This document shows positions 13,814 through 56,681 of a DNA stretch of 64,000 bases, piece after piece (the stretch's first letter is position 1; every line of letters starts with the position of its first letter). Both the position numbers and the translations under genes were made by a program. Under the pieces are notes generated by a model. It was not told the origin of the DNA and made no database searches. It saw only the letters and a list, made by a program, of their open reading frames with translations. Source of the stretch: Pilaira anomala (Eukaryota; Mucoromycota; Mucoromycetes; Mucorales; Mucoraceae); contig JAIXMQ010000054.1 of the NCBI GenBank assembly GCA_025716855.1, positions 124,001-188,000 of the forward strand, read 5' to 3'.

Positions 13814-15195
13814 TTACGTGAAGTGTTTCGAAGACCAACTTTGGAATTGCACCATAGCCCTTTGTACTTGCATGTCAGGAATCATTCTTTTACTTTCTTT
13901 GAATGGTACTAGAATATCACCATGTACAGCTTCTTTAAGACGAACCGAATGAGGACCAACGAGATAGTAAGTATTAGTAGCTTTGTTGACCTTTATAACT
14001 TCGAGAGGACCAATGAACTTATCAGCAAACTTTTCACTAGGATAGTGGTCTTTCATTAAAACTTTAGCACCGACTTCAAAAGGAACACGAGGTACAACAT
14101 TCTTATCATAAACAATCTTTCTCAACTTCTTTTTATCTTCAGCGTTCAACCTAGCAGCTTCACGAACTTCGACCAACCAATTGTCAATTTCTTTAACTCG
14201 ACGACTTATTTCTTCTTCAACTTTCCGACTACATAATCATAACGAGGGGGAACCCATGTTGAAGGCGTTCTCATTTCATAACCATACAAGAGCATACTAG
14301 GAGTATAACCGGTAGCTTCGTTCACCATGGTACGGATAGCTAATAAAGCAGGCTGTATGTAAGAGTCCCAAGGTTTAGCACCATCATCTCTTCTCAGTTT
14401 AGCCATAGTTTGGACTAAAGTATTATTCAAGCGTTCTACTTGACCATTACTTTGAGGTCTCCTGCTAGTACTAAACCTATGATTGCATTCAATACTTCTT
14501 AGATATGATTGTAGATATTCAGCCATGTAATTAGATCCACGATCTGAGATAAGATGACTAGGGGAACCGTATACAGCAACAATCTCATTCTGTATGAACT
14601 CAGCAGTAACTTCAGCGGTAATCTCCTTCACAGCAATAGCGATTGGCCACTTGGTAAGGTAATCTACAGCTACGATCATGTATTTCATTCCAGAGGGAGT
14701 TTCAGGTAAAGGACCTACGCAATCACAACCAACCAAATAGAACGGCTTAGAAGGAGTGGGGACTAGATACCCAGGTGTAGTCTTCTTATTCTTGATTTTC
14801 TTACGAGCTTGACAGGTGGCGCATACCTCAACCAATTCCTTCACCAACCGATGTAAACCTTTACCAACAAACTGCAGATGAACTCTGTTCCAAGTATAAT
14901 TGACACCTAGATGACCTTCATTGTGGACCTTAAGGATAGCAGCTTCAATGGTACCTTCATGTAACAACTGACGACCATAATAGGCACATTCATCTTCACC
15001 CCACCTTATTTCGAATAATTGACCTTTGGATGCGAGATACTTCTTTGATTTAGCCCGAATACTAGCTTTAACATTTTCAGTAGCGTCGATAGGATACTTT
15101 TTGGTAACTACATAGTTATAGAGAGCAGCGTAACTAGGAAAATCCATATTAACTTGATATATATACTTGGAGAACTTGGAGTGAAAGGACCACAA
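13814..15195 (-). pseudogene. Retrotransposon integrase, one frameshift
   Basis: Integrase of the Ty3-like element, in two frames: 14206-15195 and 13814-14216. The N-terminal HHCC zinc-binding motif is complete ('HNEGHLG' about 30 residues before 'CATCQARK'). The core keeps the catalytic DDE residues: Asp in 'GCDCVGPL', Asp in 'ISDRGSNY' and Glu in 'NGQVERLN'. After 'YDYVVGK' a -1 frame change is needed to enter 'VEEEISRRV', then a C-terminal part with a GPF-like module ('KFIGPLEVIKV'). No chromodomain follows; the frame stops 23 bp before the LTR. Either a 1-base deletion inactivates it or the base call is wrong. Confidence 0.88.
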
Positions 15196-15535
15196 AATAG
15201 AACGATTGAACCATGTATTTATATTAACCAGGAATTTGAAAACTTAAAAACTTGTAATCTTGTAACACTCGGTATAACCACACTTGACGATAAAGTTTGT
15301 ATCTCCCTACACCAACTTTAAATTTAAACAATAAACTTGACACACTTTGAAGCATACACAAATAAGACCGGAATACTAGAATCGGATATCCTATAACTAG
15401 AACTACATATTACTTGCACCATCACTATATTCGTATACGTTCTTCTTTTTAGCAACAAAATAGATTCCAGACTTCATAACCTACGATAACAGAATCTTCG
15501 ATCCACCTTAATTTCTTCACACACCGGAAGCACAA

Positions 15536-15567
<32 letters not shown>

Positions 15568-16324
15568 CAATTTCAGTTTCCGCACCTAGTGGATTGAAAT
15601 AAAACAAGATCATGACACGACTTGTTGGAAACCTTTAAAATAGCAATAATGACCTTGGTAGAGACCTTTTACCATCATTCGAAAGAGCTTTTTCTTCTAC
15701 AGCAGGACCTACTATTCAATTGAAAATAGCTTGTGAATTGACCAAGATACAGTGCTTGACTTTCACACACCTTTTTCCATTTTTAGACATAAAATAAAAA
15801 TAAAACTAAAATTTTAATTTCTTGTAATCACCAATTTCTTTGACAGATAGACAGACACTTCAAAGTAAGCTTGATATTGATCGATTTGACTTGAGTTAGC
15901 TTCTTGAAATTAGTTGATATCACAGAGAACAACCTAATTTACATACGCACATAGCAGAGAAACAACACACCGATAAAGACCAATTATTACAGCAATCAAA
16001 GACATAATTTTTTTTTTTATTTAATAAGAAAATAAAATCAAATAGCAATCTTAAGCACAGCACTAAACCCACAGAGCGATTTAATAGAGTTTTCTTTCTT
16101 CATACCAGTGATCATACAAAGAATCAGTTTAAATAGAGACCATTAAACCTTGATAGTTTACCGCCAATTCCGGGCAAGTTTCTTGATAACATATACACCC
16201 AAAAAAAGAAACCAAAAGACACACTCAGAGAAACAAAGAGCACACCAAGAAAAGACACACACCAAAATACTTCACACCCGTTGTTAGTTTTCTGTCATCC
16301 CGGACACTTCTTCATCTTTTACTA
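15196..16324 (-). other. Non-coding spacer between RNase H and integrase
   Basis: About 1.1 kb inside the element with no usable open frame on the minus strand. It is AT-rich, contains a 27-base T run at 15541-15567, and resembles leader-type sequence rather than a decayed protein. In most Ty3-type elements integrase follows RNase H directly. An intron spanning this stretch, separate expression of integrase, or a secondary insertion are possible; I could not fix splice sites. Confidence 0.5.
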
Positions 16325-18410
16325 TTAGTCACTTTCTACATTCATCGAATTATCTTCTTTAGCATGTATACGTGAGAGACTATCACTTGGGATAAGAGCA
16401 CCTGGTTTATATCTAAATACAAAACGGAAACCCATCAAAGCTGCGGCCCACCTGTTGATCTTTGAGTTTGGACTAACATTATTCAATATGTATTTCAAAC
16501 TAGCATGATCGCTAACTAGTACAAATTCACGTCCTGCCAAATAGTGTCTGAAATATTTAACACCCCAAACTAAAGCCATAGCTTCGCCTTCAGTAGCACC
16601 CAATGATCTTTCGTAATTTGACCTCATGGATCTTGAAGCATACGCGATCACAGTTTCGTCTTTTTCGGTACCATCAGGGCTTTGACTTAGTATACAACCT
16701 ATACCCTTGGAAGGAGCGCAATCAGTAGTTAACCTTTGTACTTGATAGGGCGACGGATGAGCTAGTATAGGAGCTGAGGTAAGCCTATCTTTCAAAGTAT
16801 TAAAGGCGACTTGACATTCCGGTGACCAAACATACTTAACCGTCTTCTTCAGTAGATTAGTTAAAGGTCCAGCAGTTTCAGCAAAGGTAGGAATAAATTT
16901 ACGGTAGAAATTGACAGTACCCAAGAAACTTTTCAGTTCACTACAATTTTCCGGCGGTCTCATTTCAGCAATCTTCTTAACATTATTACCAGTTGGTTTA
17001 ACACCATCTACACTAATACGATGTCCCAGATAAGTAATTTCAGTCTTGTAGATTTCCGCTTTAGCCCACTTCAACTTCAAATTAGCATCTTCAAGTAAAG
17101 AGAACAATAAATCCAAGGCGTATGCATGATCTTCTACCGTATCAGTACCAATGATAACATCGTCCACAAAGAGATGAAAGTATTTACCAATGTAAGGACC
17201 AAGGATATTCATAAGCGTGCGGTTGAAGAAACCTGGACTCAAAGACAGACCAAAAGGAATACGGTTATGTTCAAAGGTACCATATTTACATATAAAACCA
17301 GTATATTGTTTAGACTCTTCACTTAAAGCTACTTGACCAAAACCATTGGCTAAATCTAATACTGTGAAGTATTTTTTTCCATGGAAAGAAGTGACTACAT
17401 CAAAGACGTTAGGCATAGGGAAATCTTCGACTACAATGTTTCGGTTGATACCACGCAAATCGTATATGAGTCTTAACCCACCAGTAGCACGCCTAATGAA
17501 GAAGATACCACTGACCCAGACACCTTTAGAAGGCCTTATAAGACCTAACTTCAACATTGAATCAAGTTCTTTCTTGAGATATTCATCTTCTTCCCAAGAC
17601 ATTTGATAGGCACGACTCTTAACCGGTTTAGCATCAGGTTTTAGTTGTATGACGAGTTCAACATCTTTAACCAATCCTGGACCACCAAATTCAGCGAAAC
17701 AGTTTTTATTTCTCCTGATAGCTTCACCTATAAGAGTAGGTAATTCAGCGGTAACCTTTTCAAAAGATAATTCATGATCTTCTAGTTCACCACAAGTAGT
17801 GACACCAGTTTCAGGATTAAGCGTATACTTGAATTCAGATTGATCCGGTAAGGCTTCATCGATATAACTTTTTAGGTTATCAGGTGGACAAGTAGTAGCT
17901 AACCTTTCATCTTCACCGTACACTGTATCTCCAGGTAATTTGGTAACACCATTGTGATATTTAGTCAGAGCTTCAGTCTCAACAGGTTCAACGAGATAAT
18001 CATAACCGTTAGTCTTAGAACCATCCCACAAGAGAGAAACTGAGTAGACTTCAGCGCTAGAATTATTTATTTTACCAGGAACCTTCTTTGAACTGTAAGC
18101 TTGTATCATGATTGAGCTAGTACCATTTCTTACGGGTATTTCTACTAAACTTTCCCGAGCATGGATAATAACACCATATTGTTTTAAGAAGGTCATACCT
18201 AACAGAATAAGCGGTTCACCAGCAACATTAGAGTAATTGTCTTCTTTAATTACCATATGTTCTACCCTTAAACGACCACCAATACGTATAGGTACTGATA
18301 CTGTTACTTCACATTGATTACGTTTACGATTCTCCTTAGTAGTTTCGATTGTCTTAATATTTACTGAATCACCAGAACCTAATAGACCTAGTTTTTTCGG
18401 CGAAAGAACG
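16325..18410 (-). pseudogene. Retrotransposon protease-reverse transcriptase-RNase H
   Basis: Pol of the Ty3-like element. The protease core with the catalytic 'DSGSALSVIN' lies near 18360-18400 in a frame of its own. A +1 change at an A run then enters the long frame that continues to 16325. The protease end 'LLGMTFLKQYGVII' is in that long frame. Reverse transcriptase motifs are complete: 'FTVLDLANGFGQV', 'FGLSLSPGFF' and the catalytic 'LFVDDVIIG'. RNase H follows: 'TDCAPSKGIGC', the Glu in 'TEGEAMALVWG' and 'SDHASLKYIL'. The RT/RNase H frame has no internal stop, so this part could still be active. Its end is followed by the non-coding spacer. Confidence 0.93.
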
Positions 18411-18412
18411 AT

Positions 18413-21589: not shown

Positions 21590-21596
21590 ATGAATT

Positions 21597-21677
21597 GTCA
21601 CTATGTCCGAGTGGTTAAGGAGTGTGACTTGAAATCACATACGTTTACGTGCGCAGGTTCAAACCCTGCTGGTGACG
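21597..21677 (+). tRNA. tRNA-Ser(UGA)
   Basis: The acceptor stem GTCACTA pairs with TGGTGAC (one G-U), followed by discriminator G, typical of tRNA-Ser. Box A (GTCCGAGTGGTTAAGG) and box B (GGTTCAAACCC, 21656-21666) are present. Anticodon stem TGTGA/TCACA encloses loop CTTGAAA, giving anticodon TGA at 21630-21632. A long variable arm (CATACGTTTACGTG region) fits a class II tRNA. No intron. A T5 terminator follows at 21683. Confidence 0.93.
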
Positions 21678-21682
21678 ATATC

Positions 21683-29461: not shown

Positions 29462-32448
29462 ATGACTAAATCATCAAGAAAAGATATAATAGATAGACTA
29501 GAATATTATTATCAAGTCATTAACAAGACAATCATATCCAAGCAAAATGCATCCAGTGGCTTAATGCCTGCCTCTACTGCAATTACTGTAAACTATCTTT
29601 TTTTTTTTTTTATTCTTTTTAAGCATAAACTAATTTCTTTTTTTACGTATAGAGCCATGGTGACTATACTGATGCTTGGGTCAGGTAAATAATAATAATA
29701 TAAATATCATCTACACATCACATTACTTATACATTTATATAGAGATAATGTATATTCTATTTACGCTGTCTATGGTCTTGCCTTAGCTTATAAGAGATTA
29801 GATGATAGTACCGGGAGAGCATGTAAGTAACAAAGAAAAAAAAAAAAAGGGGGGGGGGAGAGGGGAGGGAAATCTCTCTCTCTCTCTCTCTTTATCAATG
29901 TACGATTTTCATAATGAATTATTATTAAAAAAAAAAAAAAATACTTCTTATATAGTTGAGCTTCAATATTCCGTTGTTAAATTGATGAGAGGTTTATTAT
30001 TTTCTATGATGCGTCAATCACATAAAGTCGAACAGTTCAAACAAACCCAATCATTAGAACATGCACTTCATGCTAAATACAATACAAAAACTGGTGAAAC
30101 CGTTGTAGGTGATTTTGAATGGGGACATTTACAGGTACAAAAAAAAAATATATATATATACAAGATAAAAAAAAAAAAAAAAGTGGAGTCTGTATTTTTA
30201 ACTGTAATATATAGATCGATGCAACTAGTTTCTTTTTATTAGCTTTAGCAGATATGACAGCTGGTGGTCTCAACATAATTTATACCCAAGATGAAGTAGA
30301 CTTTATTCAAAACCTTGTATTTTATATTGAAAGTAAGCACTTTGATTACCTAATGTAACACAACAAACTAAAAAAAAAATATATATATATCTTTTTCATT
30401 ATTATAGGAGCTTACCGTACACCTGATTACGGTATTTGGGAAAGAGGTAATAAAATCAATCACGGCCAACCTGAATTAAATTCTTCTTCCATTGGTATGG
30501 CTGTTGCTGCATTACGTGCAATTAACGGTATCAATTTATTTGGTGCACGAGGTGGTCCATCCTCTGTAAGTTTTTTTCTAACTTTTGAACACACCCCCCC
30601 TCCCCTCCGCTTTACATCTTTTTAATACTTATATCTTCAATAGGTCATTCATGTTTTACCTGATGAATTAACACGTAACGCAACAACACTTCATAGCTTT
30701 TTACCAAGAGAATCCAACTCAAAAGAAATCGATGCATCGGTATTATCCATCATTGGATTCCCTGCATTTGCAGTAGACGACCCAACACTTATCCAACGTA
30801 CAAAAGATCAAGTCAAACAAAAACTCGAAGGAAAATACGGTATGAAACGATTCTTACGAGACGGACATCAAACCATGGTCGAAGACACCTCTCGATTGTA
30901 TTACGAGGAACAAGAACTCAAAGTATTTGAAGACATTGAGTCCGAATGGCCACTCTTTTTCACTTACATGGTCTTGGAAGGTTTATTCACGGGTAACCTA
31001 GACCAAGCAAAAGAATATCAACGTAAAATAGACCCATTACTTGTCAACTCGCTCGAGGACAATGAGGACGGTTTGAATATACCTTTATTACCTGAACTTT
31101 ATTTCGTTGAAAAACATTTGATTGCAGCTGAAAAGGAAAACCCGCATTCTCAATCTCGTACACCCAATGATAATGTACCTTTAGTTTGGGCTCTTTCGCT
31201 TTACTTCTTGGGCGGTCTCATCACGGAAGATTTACTTTCTCCTTCTGAAGTAGACCCACTCGGTCGTCGATTCAATAGTACCAAATTAGCTAAAGAAAGT
31301 ATCATTCAAATCGTACTTTTGTCCGAAGATAGAGATCTTCAATCTACTTTATCTACTTTTGGTCTCGAAACTCAAACCCTTGAACACGTTTCTTCTACAA
31401 CCACTGTCTTACCCCCTCAAGCACTTGTAGATGTTTATGCTGGTTTAGGTCTGAACGAAAAGATGAACATGAGTGGTCGACCCAAAAGGTAAATAATAAT
31501 AATAATAATGTATTTCTCTTACAATTTATACTAAACATTTTTTTTTTCAAGACCTATCGGTGTCTTGGGTACTTCTCGATTCTATAAAATTCAAGGTCAA
31601 ACCTACGCCTTCACTCCACACTTTATGGACAACAACGAATTCTACATGAACGCTGATCCAAACTACTTGGTCTCCGAATTCGAAAGTGAACTAAGTTTCA
31701 CCAAGAACAACTGGTACTACCCCGGCAGACCCACCATGGTAGTTGTTCTCTCGCATGCACTTTTAGGTTCAGACGTATCCGAACCATCCAAGAAGAACCT
31801 CCTCAATTTCTTTGCCAATTTACGTACTGGCTACTCCAAAGACAAAGTGCGTGTCAAACTCTGCCGATTAGCGGAGACCATCAACACAAGTAACATTGAA
31901 TCCTTGGATTTCTTGATCCATAAACCTCAAGTGGACTGGCAACGTATCTTACGTATCGCGCATGCTTCTCGTATCTCTAAAAAGAAATTAGGTTACAACG
32001 CTTCAAAGACACAAGCAAGTACGCCGGGACATCGTACACCGGGTATGCCAGGTTCACATGGCGGTGGTGGTAGAACCCCTAAGCGAAAGAATACGACCTT
32101 TTATGGTAAATCGTTAGCTTCGCCTCTTTATAAAACCCATGACGAGAATTACTTTGATGAATTGACAAACGCGCTTCATAAATTAAAGGCTTTGGCTGAA
32201 CCCGAATTCAAGTTGAAGGCGCATGAAGATAAACCCTTCATCGTTCAATCTCCTCCTTTCGATTCTCCTCCTCCTCTGCTGGTTCAACAACTGGAAAAGA
32301 AGACAGGCACTGTACCTTCGGCAATCAAACAAGATCCTTCGAGTTCTCCTCATGAAATGCTTTCTTTAACTTTAGGTGATGATGCTCAATTTGATCAAGC
32401 CGTTGAAAGTTTATCTGCCTCTGTCAACTTGTACGACCAAATTGGTAA

Positions 32449-32485
<37 letters not shown>

Positions 32486-34371
32486 AGTATATCCACTCTC
32501 TTTTATGTATTAAATGGACAATTTTTTTTCTTTCTTTCTTTCTAGATTTATTACAATACATGATCTCTTGTCGTCCTGCAACTTACTATATCGAATCTCT
32601 GGATACAACCACCACCGAACTCTTGGAAGAAGTCTACCTTAAATCCATGCGTTCTCAATACTGGTCCATTGCAAGACAAGCAGCTGGTTTATTAAAGAAA
32701 AATGTACCTTCTCTAACCATCAGTATCACTGACCTTGTCATTCGTCAAAAGCAAGTCAGTATTGGTTCTGGTCCTCAAGAATATTTAATCTCTATGCCCG
32801 TTGCTCCTGATACCTTGAAAACAATGATTAGCGAGCATTGGTAAGTGCAAATATATATATATATATAAAATGTATTTAAACATAGCATGACTTACTCCCC
32901 TCCCCCCCCTTTTTTTTTATTATTATTATCTAGTCTGGATGATGTACGTGAAGGCCCTGTCGTTCAAGAAATCTTGATTTATTTAGGAAACTTAATTCGT
33001 ACACAACCACACATGTTTGAAGGCATCTTACGTCTTCGTACACATTACATTATCATTGCACTTCGAGAAGAAATCAGTCGTGTGCATCAAACAGATGAAG
33101 AAGAATCCGTTGAACTTCTGATGCAATTATCTCCATTTGAACTCAAATCACTTCTCAACACTATCCTTTCCGGACCCAGTCTCTGTCACCACAGCAACAA
33201 CACCAACAACAACAACAACACTAGCACCAACACCAGCAGCACCACAAGTATGGTTCATGACAGATCCAGCGGTTTCTTAAAGCAAGAAAGAGACATCATC
33301 CCTTCCCTGGATTCTTCTACGATTAACATCAAAGCTCAATCCGCTGGTTACTTCTCTGGTAACTTTGCTACGGTAGAAATAAACGGTACGATCATGCACG
33401 CCAATTCACGCGGACTTCATGTCTGGGCCACCAGTCTCCATCGTACCGATCACATCATCTTGGAACGTGCCTCTTTCGATACCCATATCTCAAAAGAAGA
33501 AAGTCAAGCATTGGTTCAATTCCTAAACTGGATCCAACCCGATATGATTTTCGTCATCGCATGTAAAGATGAATGTGTTGAACGCTTGACGGAGGAGGCC
33601 ATACACGCATTAGAACAACTTGGTAGTAAAAAGATCAGAGACCTCAAGTACCGTGACTCTTACGTCTTGATCGGCGTCAAGGGAGGAACAGGAGGAGGAG
33701 GGGACCCAGACTGTATACTACTGGAGTCACATCAAGTAGCCACAGAGGGTCCTACACCAATCCTTCAAACCACATTCACCATGAAATCCACCGATCCTAA
33801 AAAAGAAGAGAATAATACCACGCAACAGCAACAACAAGAACCTATCTCCCTTGACACTGTCCATCAATACTTCCCTACAGCAAACGGTAGATGGTTACGT
33901 CGTAGAAAGAACGATGGTGCTCTGAACAGAGTACCTACCCACTTCTTTCCTCAAGTCTGGTCTGTTTTAAACCAATCCGAAGGGTTAGTCATCAAGTCCC
34001 ATACTTTACCTCGTGACCCGATCGTATTAGAAAAGACACCAGAGGAATTCAATTTTGCCATTGCAGTCGAATCCTTCTTGGCCTGGTTCTCTGACCCGGC
34101 CGAACGTCAAGTGGCAGTAGAAGTCTTGAGTATCTTACACTTGACAAAAACAAAAAAGACAAGACACTACTGGTTGGATTTACCTGTCATCATTCATCGT
34201 GCCATTGAACTCTTTTGGTCCAAATGGGTTCACTTGAATAACCTTCACTTGGATTTTGAAAAGACCGATCATATTGAGTTGGCGCGTAAATTGTTCTTTG
34301 ATTTGCCTTTAGAAGGAACTGAAAGTACTGGAAATTATATTCAATCTAGTATTGATCTTTTATATAAATAA
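29462..34371 (+). CDS. Phosphorylase kinase alpha/beta-type regulatory subunit with inserted ILEI/PANDER-like domain
   Basis: 1387-residue homologue of the regulatory subunits of glycogen phosphorylase kinase. Ten exons, all in phase: 29462-29587, 29653-29684, 29743-29822, 29956-30134, 30215-30332, 30408-30565, 30644-31488, 31552-32444, 32546-32840, 32934-34371. The N-terminal glucoamylase-like fold is clear ('[21 protein letters not shown]', '[17 protein letters not shown]', '[21 protein letters not shown]'). A middle domain begins '[14 protein letters not shown]'; the C-terminal family segments are 'SLDDVREGP'-type (here '[15 protein letters not shown]', about residue 909), '[10 protein letters not shown]' (about 970) and '[15 protein letters not shown]' (about 1227). 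Between the last two, residues about 1042-1160 form an extra domain that matches ILEI/PANDER ('NSRGLHVW', '[17 protein letters not shown]', 'FVIACKDE', '[10 protein letters not shown]', '[12 protein letters not shown]'). In animals this position is the regulatory phosphorylated loop. Family assignment firm; role of the insert unknown. Confidence 0.92.
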
Positions 34372-35307: not shown

Positions 35308-36479
35308 TTAAGCGGTAATCTTGAAAGCACCAGATTGGAAACTACAAGTTTCACCCTTAACTTCACTTGTAACATCAAGTTTATAGTAATAAGAAGCGTT
35401 AGGATCATACTTGTCACTTGCGACCTGGAGATGATCCTTGTAAGTGAAGATATTGGTCAAAAGAGAATCACCAGTCCAGACAGTCTCAACTAATTGATCT
35501 GCACCTTCAGAAGCTTTATAGAGTTCAATCTTCTTTAATGCACTTGTTTGAGAAGCAGAATCACGTTTTAATTGAATTGGAACAAATTCGTTCATCTTTC
35601 GGTTCTCTCCTTCTGCGGGACTAGCGACTGTTAAACCGAAACAACCCTTGGCAAATTCTGGTCTATAATAATTTACATCATCTAAGGCTTGTGCATAAGA
35701 CATGAATCCTGCTGCATTCACATGAGCATCAGTGACTACTTTAAATGTACGAGAAGTCTTGATACAATCAGGTCCATGTTGACCATCTATCAAATTGGTT
35801 ACCCAAACACTATATTATAAAATTATGCAAAATATTTTTAGTATCACAATCATTGTATATATATATAGAAATTAACTTACCGATAGTAATAAAGACCAGC
35901 AGCTGTATCCTTTGGAATATCATCAGAAATAGATGCAGAGGTTTGTAATTCATAACTACCTGCCCAAGTATTTTGGACATATCTAGGATTACCTTGAGGA
36001 TCAACTGCATACAACTAAAAAAATAATTAAAAAATTAAAAAATTTAGTTAAATAATAATAGAAAGTAACTAAATATGTATACATACATCAAGACCAGTAA
36101 TTGTCTTTACACGATCGTTAGGTACACGAGCTAAAAATAAATTAAATGAGCAAAAAAATAGTGCATTTCTTCTCCCACCCCCTCTCTTCTTCTTCTCCGC
36201 GTTAATAATAATACTTACTGACTGTAACTGTAGCATTATTACCAGCAACGAATACTTCATCTGCTGTAGGAGCAGTAACTTCAAGACCTAATATAGTAGA
36301 TTAGTTTTTTTTGTTTTTGTTTGGATTGTTGTCAAAAAAAAAAATTGAAATTTAGTTAGTTTACCATCACAGAATTTGGCAATTGCAGCAGCATAACTAT
36401 CTTGGTTACTATCTTGTGCCTTTACAGAAGATAAACAAGCAAATACAAAGATGGAAGCAGCAGCAATAGAAAATCTCAT
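35308..36479 (-). CDS. Secreted KNH/Kre9-like wall-associated protein
   Basis: 287-residue secreted protein in five exons: 36479-36365, 36287-36219, 36130-36087, 36014-35881 and 35809-35308, phases consistent. Signal peptide 'MRFSIAAASIFVFACLSSVKA'. The mature part opens with an Ig-like domain ('EVTAPTADEVFVAGNNATVTV', then 'YYYRVWVTN') similar to the N-terminal domain of Kre9/Knh1 and the Ser-Thr-rich GPI-anchored family. A second beta-rich segment follows with paired cysteines ('GPDCIKT', 'KGCFGLTV', 'ETCSFQSG'). No C-terminal hydrophobic tail is seen, so it is probably soluble rather than GPI-anchored. Kre9-type proteins act in beta-1,6-glucan assembly; this role is inferred here. A related shorter gene lies just upstream on the same strand. 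Confidence 0.75.
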
Positions 36480-36527
36480 TTTTTTTTTTAAAAAATATGT
36501 ATTTTTGTATAATAAAGTAAAGTAAAG

Positions 36528-36563
<36 letters not shown>

Positions 36564-36724
36564 GAAAAAAGAAAATGAAATGAATTTAAAATGCGTTTTT
36601 TTTTATAAAGAAACTGAGAAAAGAGGGGGGGGGGGGTCCGTAACAGTTTAGAAGGAGCTCATAATTAAATGTGTGACACACACAACATAAAGAAAATGTA
36701 AATTAAAAATATTTATAGATTTTC

Positions 36725-49092: not shown

Positions 49093-50245
49093 CATAAGTT
49101 TCTCCTATTTACCATACTACAACCTTTCTTTCTTTTCATTCACTTTACCTTTTCTAAAGGAAGTCTTCTTCCATTCAAATCAATATGTAAATTTTCCGGC
49201 CATTGACACTTTCGTTCTGGTCCTTCCTTATACCAAGAAGTCAACACAAACCTCAAAGGAAACGTATCCCCTTCTCCAATCATCATAGTATCATTCGTAC
49301 ACAAATTATCAAAATCAGGTCTAGGTAAAAAAAACGATTTTCCTGAAACCTCTTGACCATGACTCAATCGAAATGGTTTCACAGCATATTCCTTCTTATA
49401 CCGAAATCGAACTCGGTCATTTTCAGGATCTAATGTCTTAGCCCTCTTCACATTCTCTTGTCCTTTGGCAGGTGGTAAATGTAATCCGGCTGGATGCATT
49501 ACAGGTGTAGACACCGCTTTACCTAGAGGCTGATAACTACTTGTGAGCGTCGCACTTGTAAGGTTAGGTGACCCGAAATTGTTACGTGTAGGTGAAGCAA
49601 TGGGTGACTGAGGTATAGAGACTGAGGGTCGAGGTGTAACGACTGAGGGTAGTCCTCCAGGTATAGATTGAATCACTTGTCCAATCGCATTTGCTGCTGT
49701 ACTGGCTGCTATTGCTCCATTGTATCCTGTTCCATTTACTGTCCCTTGTTGTTGTGGTTGAACTGCCATATGAAATAAATTACTGATTTGTTCCTGTATA
49801 CTAGCTGGCCAAGGTGTTACTGAAGAAGAAGAAGGCTGTGCAATCGCAAGACCTGACTGCTTGGCTTGTTGAATATGCGGATTAGGTGGTTGATGTGGTA
49901 CATAGTTAAAGAATTGCGGTAAATTCTGTTGTGTTAAACGTTGTGCTTGTTGTACTTGCTGTTGTACTAATTTCTGTGCTTGTTGTACTTGCTGTTGTAC
50001 TAACTGTTGCTGTGCTGATTGCTGTTGTGCTAACTGTTGCTGTGCTGATTGCTGTTGTGCTAATTGTTGGGCTTGTCTTTGGGCTGCTTGTTGTTGTTGT
50101 TGTTGCTGTTGCAATAATTGCTGTTGCTGTTGTTGATGTTGCTGTGTTAATCTTTGTTGTTGCATCTCTCGTTGCAATTGTTGTTGCTTTAACAGATGTT
50201 GCTGTTGGCTCCTTTGATACTGTTGTTGCTGTTGTTGTTGATATA

Positions 50246-50276
<31 letters not shown>

Positions 50277-51387
50277 CTGTTGTTGTTGTTGTTGTTGTTG
50301 TTGACGTTGACGTTGAAGGTATTGTTGTTGCATAACTTGTCTTTGTAAAGAAGATGGTGGTTGAGTGGCAGGGGTAGCGATACCTGATTGAGGTATTTGT
50401 ATCTGTTGATACTGAGTTTGTAAATTATTTTGAAAAGATTGCTGTTGTTGTTGAGGTTGTTGTTGTTGTTGAGGCTGTTGTTGTTGTTGTTGTTGAGTTT
50501 GTTGTTGTTGTTGTTGAGGTTGTGCTTGAGGTTGAGGAGAAGTATTTAACTCCAATAAATTCTTTACGTATTGACTATATTGTGGTGAAAAGGTAGCTAC
50601 CGGTGATTGTGGTGTAGTTATATTCGGAATAGATCGAATACTGGTAGGAGATCCGGTCATAGTAAGATTGGCTGAAGAATTTGAAGCAATTGATCCTTCA
50701 CTAGGCCTTCTTACTTGAGATGTGTTACATGCTTCATTATAATATCTTCTAATAAGTGCTATATAAACGATAAAATATTAGCATATATAACGCTTATAAT
50801 AAGATTTCTTCCCTCCCCCCCCCTTTCATTTTTTTTTGTACCTTTTGCTCTGTCAGTTAATGGTTCACATCTTTCACTTGCTGTTTTCAATATCTGGATA
50901 CCAGACCAACGACCATGTTCAGCATGTTTTTCAAATACAGCTTCAAGACATTTTAATAACGCATCTTCATTTGATAAACTATAAGCACGATCATCTTTTA
51001 ACCATACCAGTAGTTCGTCACAGGCATTGCCGTATAAATGAAATACACGTATTTCCTTTTCTAACTGTAATAAACGAAAGTTGTTGTTTTCATAGATCTG
51101 TTTATTTTTTTCTTCGGAATCGATTGAAGGTGAGCTAGGTGTATCATTCATTCCAGCTAGGAGTGGATTGCCTTGAGTCAATGCCGAAAGGTTACCAGCT
51201 ACGAAAAAAAAAGGAAATTAGCCAAAAAAAGTTTTCAAAAAGAGTGTTTATTTTTGTACAATTAATAAACTGTTCATTGAACGCCGAAAATTCTATTGAA
51301 CCCTGAAATCAATAACTGAACAAAAGAGATAGTAGAAAGAACTATATGTTAATTACCTGTTTCAGAAAACGAATCGCTAAAATTCAT
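48063..51387 (-). CDS. ZMIZ/PIAS-like SUMO E3 ligase (SP-RING)
   Basis: 935-residue SUMO E3-type protein in six exons: 51387-51357, 51198-50842, 50758-49149, 49050-48928, 48846-48598 and 48500-48063. The N-terminal helical region (about residues 15-140, 'DELLVWLKDDRAYSL', 'GRWSGIQILKTASERCEPL') resembles the TPR-like start of ZMIZ1/2. A long polyQ/Gln-rich tract follows (about 196-355). The PINIT-like part is near 560-730 ('RFRYKKEYAVKPFRLS', 'LHIDLNGRRLPLEK'). The SP-RING has Cys and His in 'LRCPISLKKL', 'CKHLECFD' and 'PQWLCPCCN' (about 767-810) and would bind Ubc9-SUMO. The C-terminus is acidic with a possible SUMO-interacting motif ('VTIIDLISDDEEEE'). Targets are probably transcription factors; that is inference. 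Confidence 0.88.
50083..50560. repeat. Polyglutamine-coding repeat in the ZMIZ-like gene
   Basis: Mixed CAA/CAG codons on the minus strand (TTG/CTG on plus), interrupted by Leu, Tyr, Arg and Pro codons. The mix of both Gln codons will slow length change compared with a pure repeat. Confidence 0.85.
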
Positions 51388-54417: not shown

Positions 54418-56681
54418 TTAAATAGCCTTTGTCTCCTTTTCAAGCCAAGCAACTGCCAATGGATCATGAGCAATAAGAGAAGATAATTTCTCAAGACATT
54501 CTTGATGATAAGCATTGACCCATTTAATTTCAGAGGGAGATAAAAGTTCAACATCAATCAAGTTAAGTCCAACAGGTGCAATCGTAATGTGCTCAAATCC
54601 AAGGTACCCACGTCCACCAAAGTTATTAGGTGTATCCACATCCTTGACCAAAATCACATTTTCAATACGGATACCAAATTTACCATCTTCGTAATACCCA
54701 GGTTCATCTGTCACTGTCATACCTGCAGCAAGTGCAGTATCATTGAAATGAGGACGAATACCAATACCATGAGGTCCCTCATGTACATTTAAGAAGCAAC
54801 CAACACCATGTCCAGTACCATGAAGGAAATTGAGTCCATCTTTCCAAAGTGCTTGACGAGCAAAAGGATCCAACAAGTATCCTGTAGTTCCCTTTGGAAA
54901 TACTGCTTCATCAATAGCAATATGACCTTGAAGGACACGTGTAAAGCATCTCTTTTCATATTCAGTAGGTGTACCGAAATGGAAGGTACGAGTGACATCG
55001 GTTGTACCATCATAGTATTGTCCTCCACTATCACAAAGATAGATTTGGGTAGGATCAATGACCTTACATGTTTCTTTCTCGGGCTTGTAATGAATAATGG
55101 CTCCACTAGGTCCTGTAGATGAAATCGTAGCAAATGATAATCCAACAAAGTGCTCTTGTTCCTTTCTGAATAGTTCTAAACGATCTGCTCCATCTACTTC
55201 ATCCAATTTCTCTCCAGCTAGCAACTTATCTTCTAACCATGCAAAGTAACGAACAAGTGCTGCACCATCACGAAGATGACATGCGCGCATACCCTCTAAT
55301 TCTTCTGGGGTTTTAATTGCTTTAGCGTCCGTAACAAAAGATCTTTCTTCTAAAACATTGGTCTAAATTATTTTAAAATAGGTTAGTCTTTAATTTTTTA
55401 CAGAAATCTTGAATATATATTCTGCACTTACTTCGCCTACAGCAACCTCAACTGCTAAACTAGTCTTGTTGTTTACAATTAATCGTTTACCATTTAAATC
55501 CAATTCTTTTAATTCATGAAAGAGTTCAGAGTAGGGTCTAACAGTGACAAGAGATCCCAAGTGTTCTTTAACTTCTTCAGTGACCTTATCCAAATCCACA
55601 TACAAGATGGCATCCTTTTCAGACACAACAGCATACGAAAAGAAGACTGGATTACATTCAATATCGGACCCACGAAGATTAAATAACCATGCAATTTCAT
55701 CTAAAGCAGATACAATAGTACCATACGCATTCTTACTACCAATATAATCACGTAAATCTTTCAATTTTTCCTGAATTGTCTTGCCTAGTTAATTCAAAAA
55801 AAAAGTAAGTTTTTCAACTCTATTTATGGGAATTTTTGACTAAAGAAATATTTTTTTTTTACCAGTGTATTTTACAGGTTGCACAAAGATTTTATCTTTA
55901 GGTGATTCGGGTCTATCTTTACCCCAGGCAAGGTCAATTAAATTCTCTTTGAGAGGGACTAAACAAGATCCCAAGGTTTGAAGTTGTAACGTCAATTGAT
56001 GAGCGTCCACTATTTAACTTTCTTTTTTAGCTTCAATGAATTATTTCCTTTTTTTCTAATTTCACGTTACCAGCATTGATAAGTTTAGGATCTAATCCAA
56101 TTCGAGAGCCCGAAGGAACATTCTAAATTATAAAAACGTATATTTTCAATAAAACCAATTCACAACACGCATTTACTAAAAAAAAATAAAAAAATTGTAC
56201 CTTGACCAAATATTCTTGCCAAGTAGGCACTCCAGGGTTACCTTGCTTCATTAATGTCCAATTGTTATCCAATTGTTGAGAAGCCTGTAAAAAGTATCGA
56301 CCATCTGTAAATAAAGCTGCTTCCTTTAACGTAATCACAGCGAAACCTTTTTTTTTTTTATTTATTAGTATATAACCGTGAGAAAATAATAAAGCTTATA
56401 TTTACCTGCTGAACCAGTGAAACCAGAAATCCAGTGACGACGCTTATCACAATCTGCAATATATTCACTCTAATATATCGTATTTAGTTTTTATTTATTT
56501 CGTTTAAAAAAAATATAACTTACTTGGTGGGCATCTTCAGAAGGTGCAAGGCTATATGTAGAGGAAAATGTTAATATCCAATATATTTTTTATAGTATGA
56601 AATACTTTACAAGACATCCACATCATGCTCCTTCATTAATTCACGAAGACTAGCTAAACGATCTGTTGTTACTGTTACCAT
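54418..56681 (-). CDS. Xaa-Pro aminopeptidase (aminopeptidase P), copy 1
   Basis: 601-residue cytosolic aminopeptidase P (XPNPEP1/Icp55-like M24B family) that removes N-terminal residues before proline. Eight exons: 56681-56611, 56551-56524, 56469-56406, 56346-56201, 56122-56071, 56009-55863, 55784-55432 and 55362-54418, all phases consistent. The creatinase N-domain includes '[11 protein letters not shown]' and '[13 protein letters not shown]'. In the M24 domain the dinuclear metal ligands are visible: Asp in 'YLCDSGGQY', Asp in '[11 protein letters not shown]', His in 'HGTGHGVG', Glu in 'TDEPGYY' and Glu in 'IRIENVILV'. No presequence, so cytosolic. Exon 1 and intron 1 are repeated in inverse orientation at the right edge. 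Confidence 0.96.

Follow-up and report, generated by a model that had tools for sequence, protein, structure and literature searches.

How does a domain discussed as an animal cytokine-like or Golgi module come to lie inside a fungal regulator of glycogen breakdown, and what might it do there? The question is raised by a gene in a window (the whole stretch of DNA analysed, 64,000 nucleotides) of the Mucorales fungus Pilaira anomala, spanning positions 124,001 to 188,000 of contig JAIXMQ010000054.1 (G000:C176:124001-188000) in a 34.25-Mb assembly. The gene encodes a homologue of the phosphorylase kinase alpha and beta subunits, in which a genuine ILEI/FAM3-type domain forms a folded module between domains D4 and D5, the rest of the scaffold being of the ordinary alpha/beta type. 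We describe the evidence for this domain, its spread among related fungi and its putative role as a sugar-binding input.

An ILEI/FAM3-type domain at the D4/D5 junction

An earlier note, made from the sequence alone, had read a complete ILEI domain in this protein and proposed a profile search as a check. The Pfam ILEI profile (PF15711) matches the window protein with E = 2e-21 and 76.7 bits against a curated cut-off of 27, and phmmer comparison of the segment with PDB sequences recovered the POMGnT1 stem (E = 1.7e-10), TMEM2 (4.6e-9), FAM3A (5.6e-6), FAM3C (1.5e-5) and FAM3B (1.9e-5), in full agreement with that reading. The predicted fold of the segment is also that of the ILEI/FAM3 family; the AlphaFold model of exon 10 (32935-34368) has a mean predicted local distance difference test (pLDDT) of 78.9 and a predicted template modelling score (pTM) of 0.58. 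The bounds proposed earlier, about residues 1042-1160, located the core correctly and proved too narrow for the folded domain, which in the predicted structure covers about 1038-1191, with flanking strands outside that interval. The features concerned are as follows.

33127-33156, + strand: conserved end of D4, residues 974-983, ahead of the insert (alignment with human alpha and beta)
33319-33780, + strand: full ILEI/FAM3-type domain, residues 1038-1191 (predicted structure)
33409-33687, + strand: core ILEI, Pfam PF15711 (E = 2e-21, 76.7 bits), matched at C176:157409-157687 in the search of the fungus's own genome
33802-34251, + strand: KPBB_C match, PF19292, comprising D5 and part of the preceding linker (E = 6.5e-25)
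33892-33936, + strand: conserved start of D5, residues 1229-1243 (alignment with human beta WLNRRQIDGSLNRTP)
32934-34371, + strand: exon 10, holding the D4 end, the ILEI domain and D5 (KPBB_C) in a single frame (Pfam, splice model)

The D4 end conserved in human alpha falls near residue 966, and the match resumes at 1049 after a loop of about 80 residues, whereas in human beta the matched stretches stop at 916 and restart at 917, that is, without a loop. Because the human matched stretches break there, the insert is placed at the D4/D5 junction, between segments conserved in human alpha and beta and where alpha has its long loop, as had been supposed. This alpha loop is presumably the one that carries phosphorylation sites. 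The ILEI and KPBB_C matches share the uninterrupted frame of exon 10, so the claim of one exon without a frame change also stands. Cryo-electron microscopy of the human enzyme showed D5 to have different tasks in the two subunits, binding the gamma autoinhibitory domain in alpha and mediating dimerization in beta; in the available part of that source, phosphorylation of alpha and beta is mentioned in general terms only (PMC10978961).

The splice model gives 10 exons, separated by GT/AG introns, that encode 1387 residues in an open frame (29462-34371, + strand), and the residue numbering used earlier (33331 being residue 1042) agrees with it. The sole difference in an alternative open model is an exon-6 acceptor moved by 3 bases. 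Against the PDB, the whole protein matches human PHKA1 with E = 3.5e-230 and PHKB with E = 3.4e-193, in three stretches each, and the GH15-like N-terminal domain (PF00723, E = 7.2e-8 from one exon alone) is present together with KPBB_C.

29462-29587, 29653-29684, 29743-29822, 29956-30134 and 30215-30332, + strand: exons 1-5 (splice model)
30408-30565, 30644-31488, 31552-32444, 32546-32840 and 32934-34371, + strand: exons 6-10 (splice model)

Spread and descent among fungal homologues

Two protein searches together listed 156 distinct homologues, fungal where named, several of them from single species and some partial, and 152 of these carry ILEI. In the first search, 151 proteins passed E 0.001, and ILEI, GH15 and KPBB_C occurred together in all of the best 120; in the second, limited by length, 65 of the 69 listed proteins had ILEI, and no named non-fungal protein was among the matches listed. 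The named sources, whose phyla we presume, include Mucorales, Umbelopsis, Mortierella and its allies, Basidiobolus, Dispira, Syncephalis and chytrids. A third search returned 10 matches among 1294 candidates and missed known members, which makes it uninformative on other eukaryotes. Within P. anomala itself, a paralogue on another contig (C215, locus L004) also has ILEI in the same architecture and inside one exon, shares five identical intron positions with the window gene, and is matched block by block by the database protein P0025. The earlier note's suggestion to look for the insert in other fungal homologues was thus borne out, its treatment of the insert as peculiar to this gene fails, and a one-off insertion is ruled out. 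One further homologue, P0125 from Phlyctochytrium bullatum (680 residues), has a carbon-nitrogen hydrolase domain after ILEI and KPBB_C and is probably a fused gene model.

Four homologues lack ILEI: P0148 from Synchytrium, P0153 from Geranomyces, P0154 from Phycomyces and P0156 from Batrachochytrium. In a FastTree phylogeny of the N-terminal part (598 columns, human alpha 4-623; 132 sequences, two of them non-fungal, with support of 0.855 for the node uniting all the others), each of the four adjoins an ILEI-bearing sister with support of 0.98-1.0. They are therefore losses or model errors, and a separate class of paralogues without ILEI is unsupported. In P0154 the conserved end of D4 is also missing, as if the gene model had skipped this part; ILEI may truly have been lost from P0148 and from P0156 (whose record is partial), where a shorter stretch stands in its place (54 and 91 residues, respectively, from LSPFE to RRRK). 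A tree of the ILEI domain itself (121 proteins) recovers 20 of the 27 splits that have support of 0.95 or more in the N-terminal tree, and none of its own 11 splits of that support conflicts with the N-terminal ones. Together, these comparisons suggest that ILEI is apparently an old, vertically inherited trait of the sampled early-diverging fungi, predating the separation of the sampled phyla.

A prokaryotic or viral source was also considered; contig scans confirmed no relative, but with patterns so narrow that the result is weak. PF15711 matched none of 14 control genomes. KPBB_C matched one of them, Synechococcus elongatus, a hint of a cyanobacterial relative of the alpha/beta scaffold. The combination of ILEI with phosphorylase kinase was already visible in the precomputed Pfam annotation of the search database, and a literature search, with most subscription papers outside its scope, found nothing joining the two.

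A conserved triad and a putative regulatory input

In POMGnT1, Arg129, Asp179 and Arg207 contact beta-linked N-acetylglucosamine (GlcNAc), and sugars are bound by the FAM3C, FAM3A and worm Fam3L2 domains and not bound by Fam3L1, from which two of the three residues are missing (PMC9802357, available part). The equivalents in the window protein are listed below.

33409-33411, + strand: Arg1068, equivalent of POMGnT1 Arg129 (Arg in 121/121)
33568-33570, + strand: Asp1121, equivalent of POMGnT1 Asp179 (Asp in 121/121)
33652-33654, + strand: Arg1149, equivalent of POMGnT1 Arg207 (Arg in 121/121)

The spacings are those of the POMGnT1 alignment (50 residues from Arg to Asp and 28 from Asp to Arg), and 151 of 153 ILEI rows have all three residues, the other two having deletions within the domain. 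The three residues are invariant while many other ILEI positions vary, and the linkers immediately flanking the domain are poorly conserved. Sugar sensing by the fungal ILEI domain is thus plausible from its sequence.

The account that we favour, with some reserve, is that ILEI binds a sugar or glycan and thereby gives a regulatory input at the hinge between D4 and D5 of a probably cytosolic protein, the N-terminus being by eye without an obvious signal peptide. A GlcNAc-like or other carbohydrate ligand would occupy the pocket of Arg1068, Asp1121 and Arg1149; since ILEI lies at the hinge that precedes D5, occupancy could alter how D5 grips its partner, and the altered hold would shift the drive for glycogen breakdown.

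The genome holds two loci with KPBB_C and two for glycogen phosphorylase. Each of the phosphorylases has an N-terminal RRxSMPKLTRRLTN motif, a possible phosphorylation site that would fit protein kinase A just as well. The human holoenzyme contains gamma, whereas in the P. anomala genome a gamma-type kinase is not evident from sequence comparison. A mammalian gamma-subunit query gave 114 kinase matches, of which the top one reached 130.5 bits at 34% identity, as compared with 453 bits, in a different program, for the same query against the human liver gamma form. The 14 kinase loci inspected resemble PKA-, NIM1/Snf1-, RCK- and PAK-type kinases, and the gamma stretch DNHPGYGKEVD occurs in none of these 14; the gamma tail alone found no genome match at E 10, in a search that had no positive control. 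Conservation of the gamma-contact residues K588/Y593 was considered and rejected, as the position proved variable when checked by motif (motif in 118 of 157 sequences, Tyr in 2). As to ligands, an OGT-type gene (L019/L020, G000:C35:447232-451680), the only GT41 gene found in the genome, scores 318 bits against OGT and 103 against SPINDLY, and cytosolic O-GlcNAc is therefore conceivable. A search for OGA had no match anywhere scanned and is hence uninformative.

Several observations weigh against a regulatory sugar-binding input. We infer sugar binding by the fungal copies from conservation of the triad, which is common to the other ILEI domains compared and so could be partly structural. With a pTM of 0.58, the model does not fix how ILEI is oriented to D4 and D5. 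Identity to the closest relative, P0001, is 61% for ILEI against 70-86% for D1-D5, and even the 641-780 linker, at 67%, is slightly above ILEI in this pair, though not in distant relatives. The Synchytrium and Batrachochytrium copies seem to be without ILEI, which would therefore be dispensable in some lineages, and homologues of this kind are under-sampled because the query region of both searches included ILEI, with 31 of the 151 first-search matches lying outside the best 120. Finally, since no gamma-type kinase is evident, the part of the mechanism downstream of the subunit stays hypothetical.

Carbohydrate-binding modules anchor other glycogen regulators, and it is possible, if on the unlikely side, that ILEI is likewise a targeting module that tethers the subunit to glycogen particles or to a glycosylated partner without switching its activity. 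The same conserved pocket would serve, the poorly conserved linkers fit a tethered module, and the sugar binding of FAM3 and POMGnT1 domains is reported with no allosteric role stated in the available part of the source (PMC9802357). That same part, however, leaves alpha-glucan or glycogen binding unmentioned for ILEI domains, and a position inside the chain, flanked by D4 and D5, points to coupling with D5 more than a terminal one would.

We consider it unlikely that ILEI is past sugar binding and now works at the D4/D5 junction as a structural spacer or as a surface for protein-protein contacts. In favour, the triad might have a structural function, and the shorter stretches of P0148 and P0156 show ILEI replaced in some chytrid copies; yet loss of ligand binding should have freed the polar triad, which is retained in 121 of 121 proteins. 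An artefact, whether an accidental match, a wrong gene model or a fusion of two genes in assembly or annotation, is exceedingly improbable. Nothing in the window gene speaks for it, although the homologues P0125 and P0154 do resemble faulty models, and it is contradicted by the strength of the Pfam match within a single open exon and by conservation of the same architecture in the paralogue and nearly all listed homologues.

Alpha- and beta-type sites in one chain

According to the available part of PMC10978961, human alpha keeps both GH15 glutamates, human beta has a pocket for adenosine diphosphate (ADP), and the glucoamylase-like domains of the human complex showed no enzyme activity. The scaffold with a GH15-like N-terminus and a KPBB_C C-terminus is common to PHKA1, PHKB (PDB 8jfk, 8jfl) and the fungal protein, but the fungal chain unites the two kinds of site that are separate in the human subunits. 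Among non-gap rows of 135, the alpha-type glutamates are E185 in 122/122 and E371 in 132/132, and the beta-type ADP-pocket residues are R211 in 116/121, Y213 in 122/122, R214 in 118/122 and R274 in 128/128; human alpha has A, Y, K and H at positions 211, 213, 214 and 274, and human beta has K at 371. With the N-terminal human segments as reference, 120 of 121 sequences are closer to alpha than to beta, by 30-126 bits, the remaining one being a fragment (P0050) without any such score. The combination of alpha-type and beta-type sites is what an undivided, unduplicated ancestral subunit would look like. It is conceivable, though improbable in our estimation, that such an undivided scaffold reads three kinds of metabolite together, alpha-glucan through the D1 glutamates, ADP through the pocket of beta type and beta-linked GlcNAc, as a cytosolic signal, through ILEI, thereby coupling glycogen breakdown to hexosamine supply, possibly via a non-gamma kinase; the GlcNAc signal could be O-GlcNAc on proteins or a sugar of the chitin pathway.

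The C-terminal CaaX of human alpha and beta is farnesylated. The window protein differs in lacking a C-terminal CaaX: it ends in DLLYK and its paralogue in VDFDI, and Cys stands at position -4 in 4 of 157 sequences, some of them partial. Among ILEI proteins, FAM3A, FAM3B and FAM3C (ILEI, PANDER) and TMEM2 share the Pfam family and predicted fold of the fungal domain; they are secreted or cell-surface animal proteins, and we know of none whose ILEI domain forms part of a glycogen regulator. The POMGnT1 stem domain (PDB 5ggj, 5ggl), unlike the fungal one, belongs to a Golgi glycosyltransferase. An environmental protein of 956 residues, P0157, has four tandem ILEI repeats (E = 9.3e-79) with the same extended domain and a SAGFxxGN-like start motif; unlike the fungal subunit it is repetitive and has no phosphorylase-kinase domain or other Pfam match, and in one of its four repeats Asn replaces the triad Asp. 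The available part of PMC9802357 traces the FAM3 genes to an origin, early in chordates, from a gene resembling POMGnT1 and does not refer to fungi.

Elsewhere in the window, we observed the following.

14206-18412, - strand: retrotransposon-like frames, one with integrase (PF17921, PF00665) and another with reverse transcriptase and RNase H (PF00078, PF17917, PF17919)
21596-21678, + strand: serine transfer RNA, anticodon TGA
35308-36602, - strand: perhaps one small gene, in two open frames next to the alpha/beta homologue on its downstream side; the upstream frame starts MRFSIAAASIFVFACLSSVKAQ, signal-peptide-like, and the 3' piece has no Pfam match
49140-50777, - strand: open frame with a ZMIZ1/ZMIZ2 GBD-like domain (PF25527, E = 1.3e-14)
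54418-55362, - strand: peptidase M24 (PF00557, E = 1.6e-48) with its C-terminal region (PF16188, E = 2.3e-22)

The ILEI/FAM3 domain thus gains a new setting, a fungal and probably cytosolic glycogen regulator, and the fungal copy offers a simple organism in which to learn what ILEI binds. For phosphorylase kinase, the domain supplies a likely sugar-binding module, and a fungal chain with sites of both the alpha and the beta type may represent the enzyme as it was before its duplication. In these fungi, ILEI may link the use of glycogen to a sugar signal.
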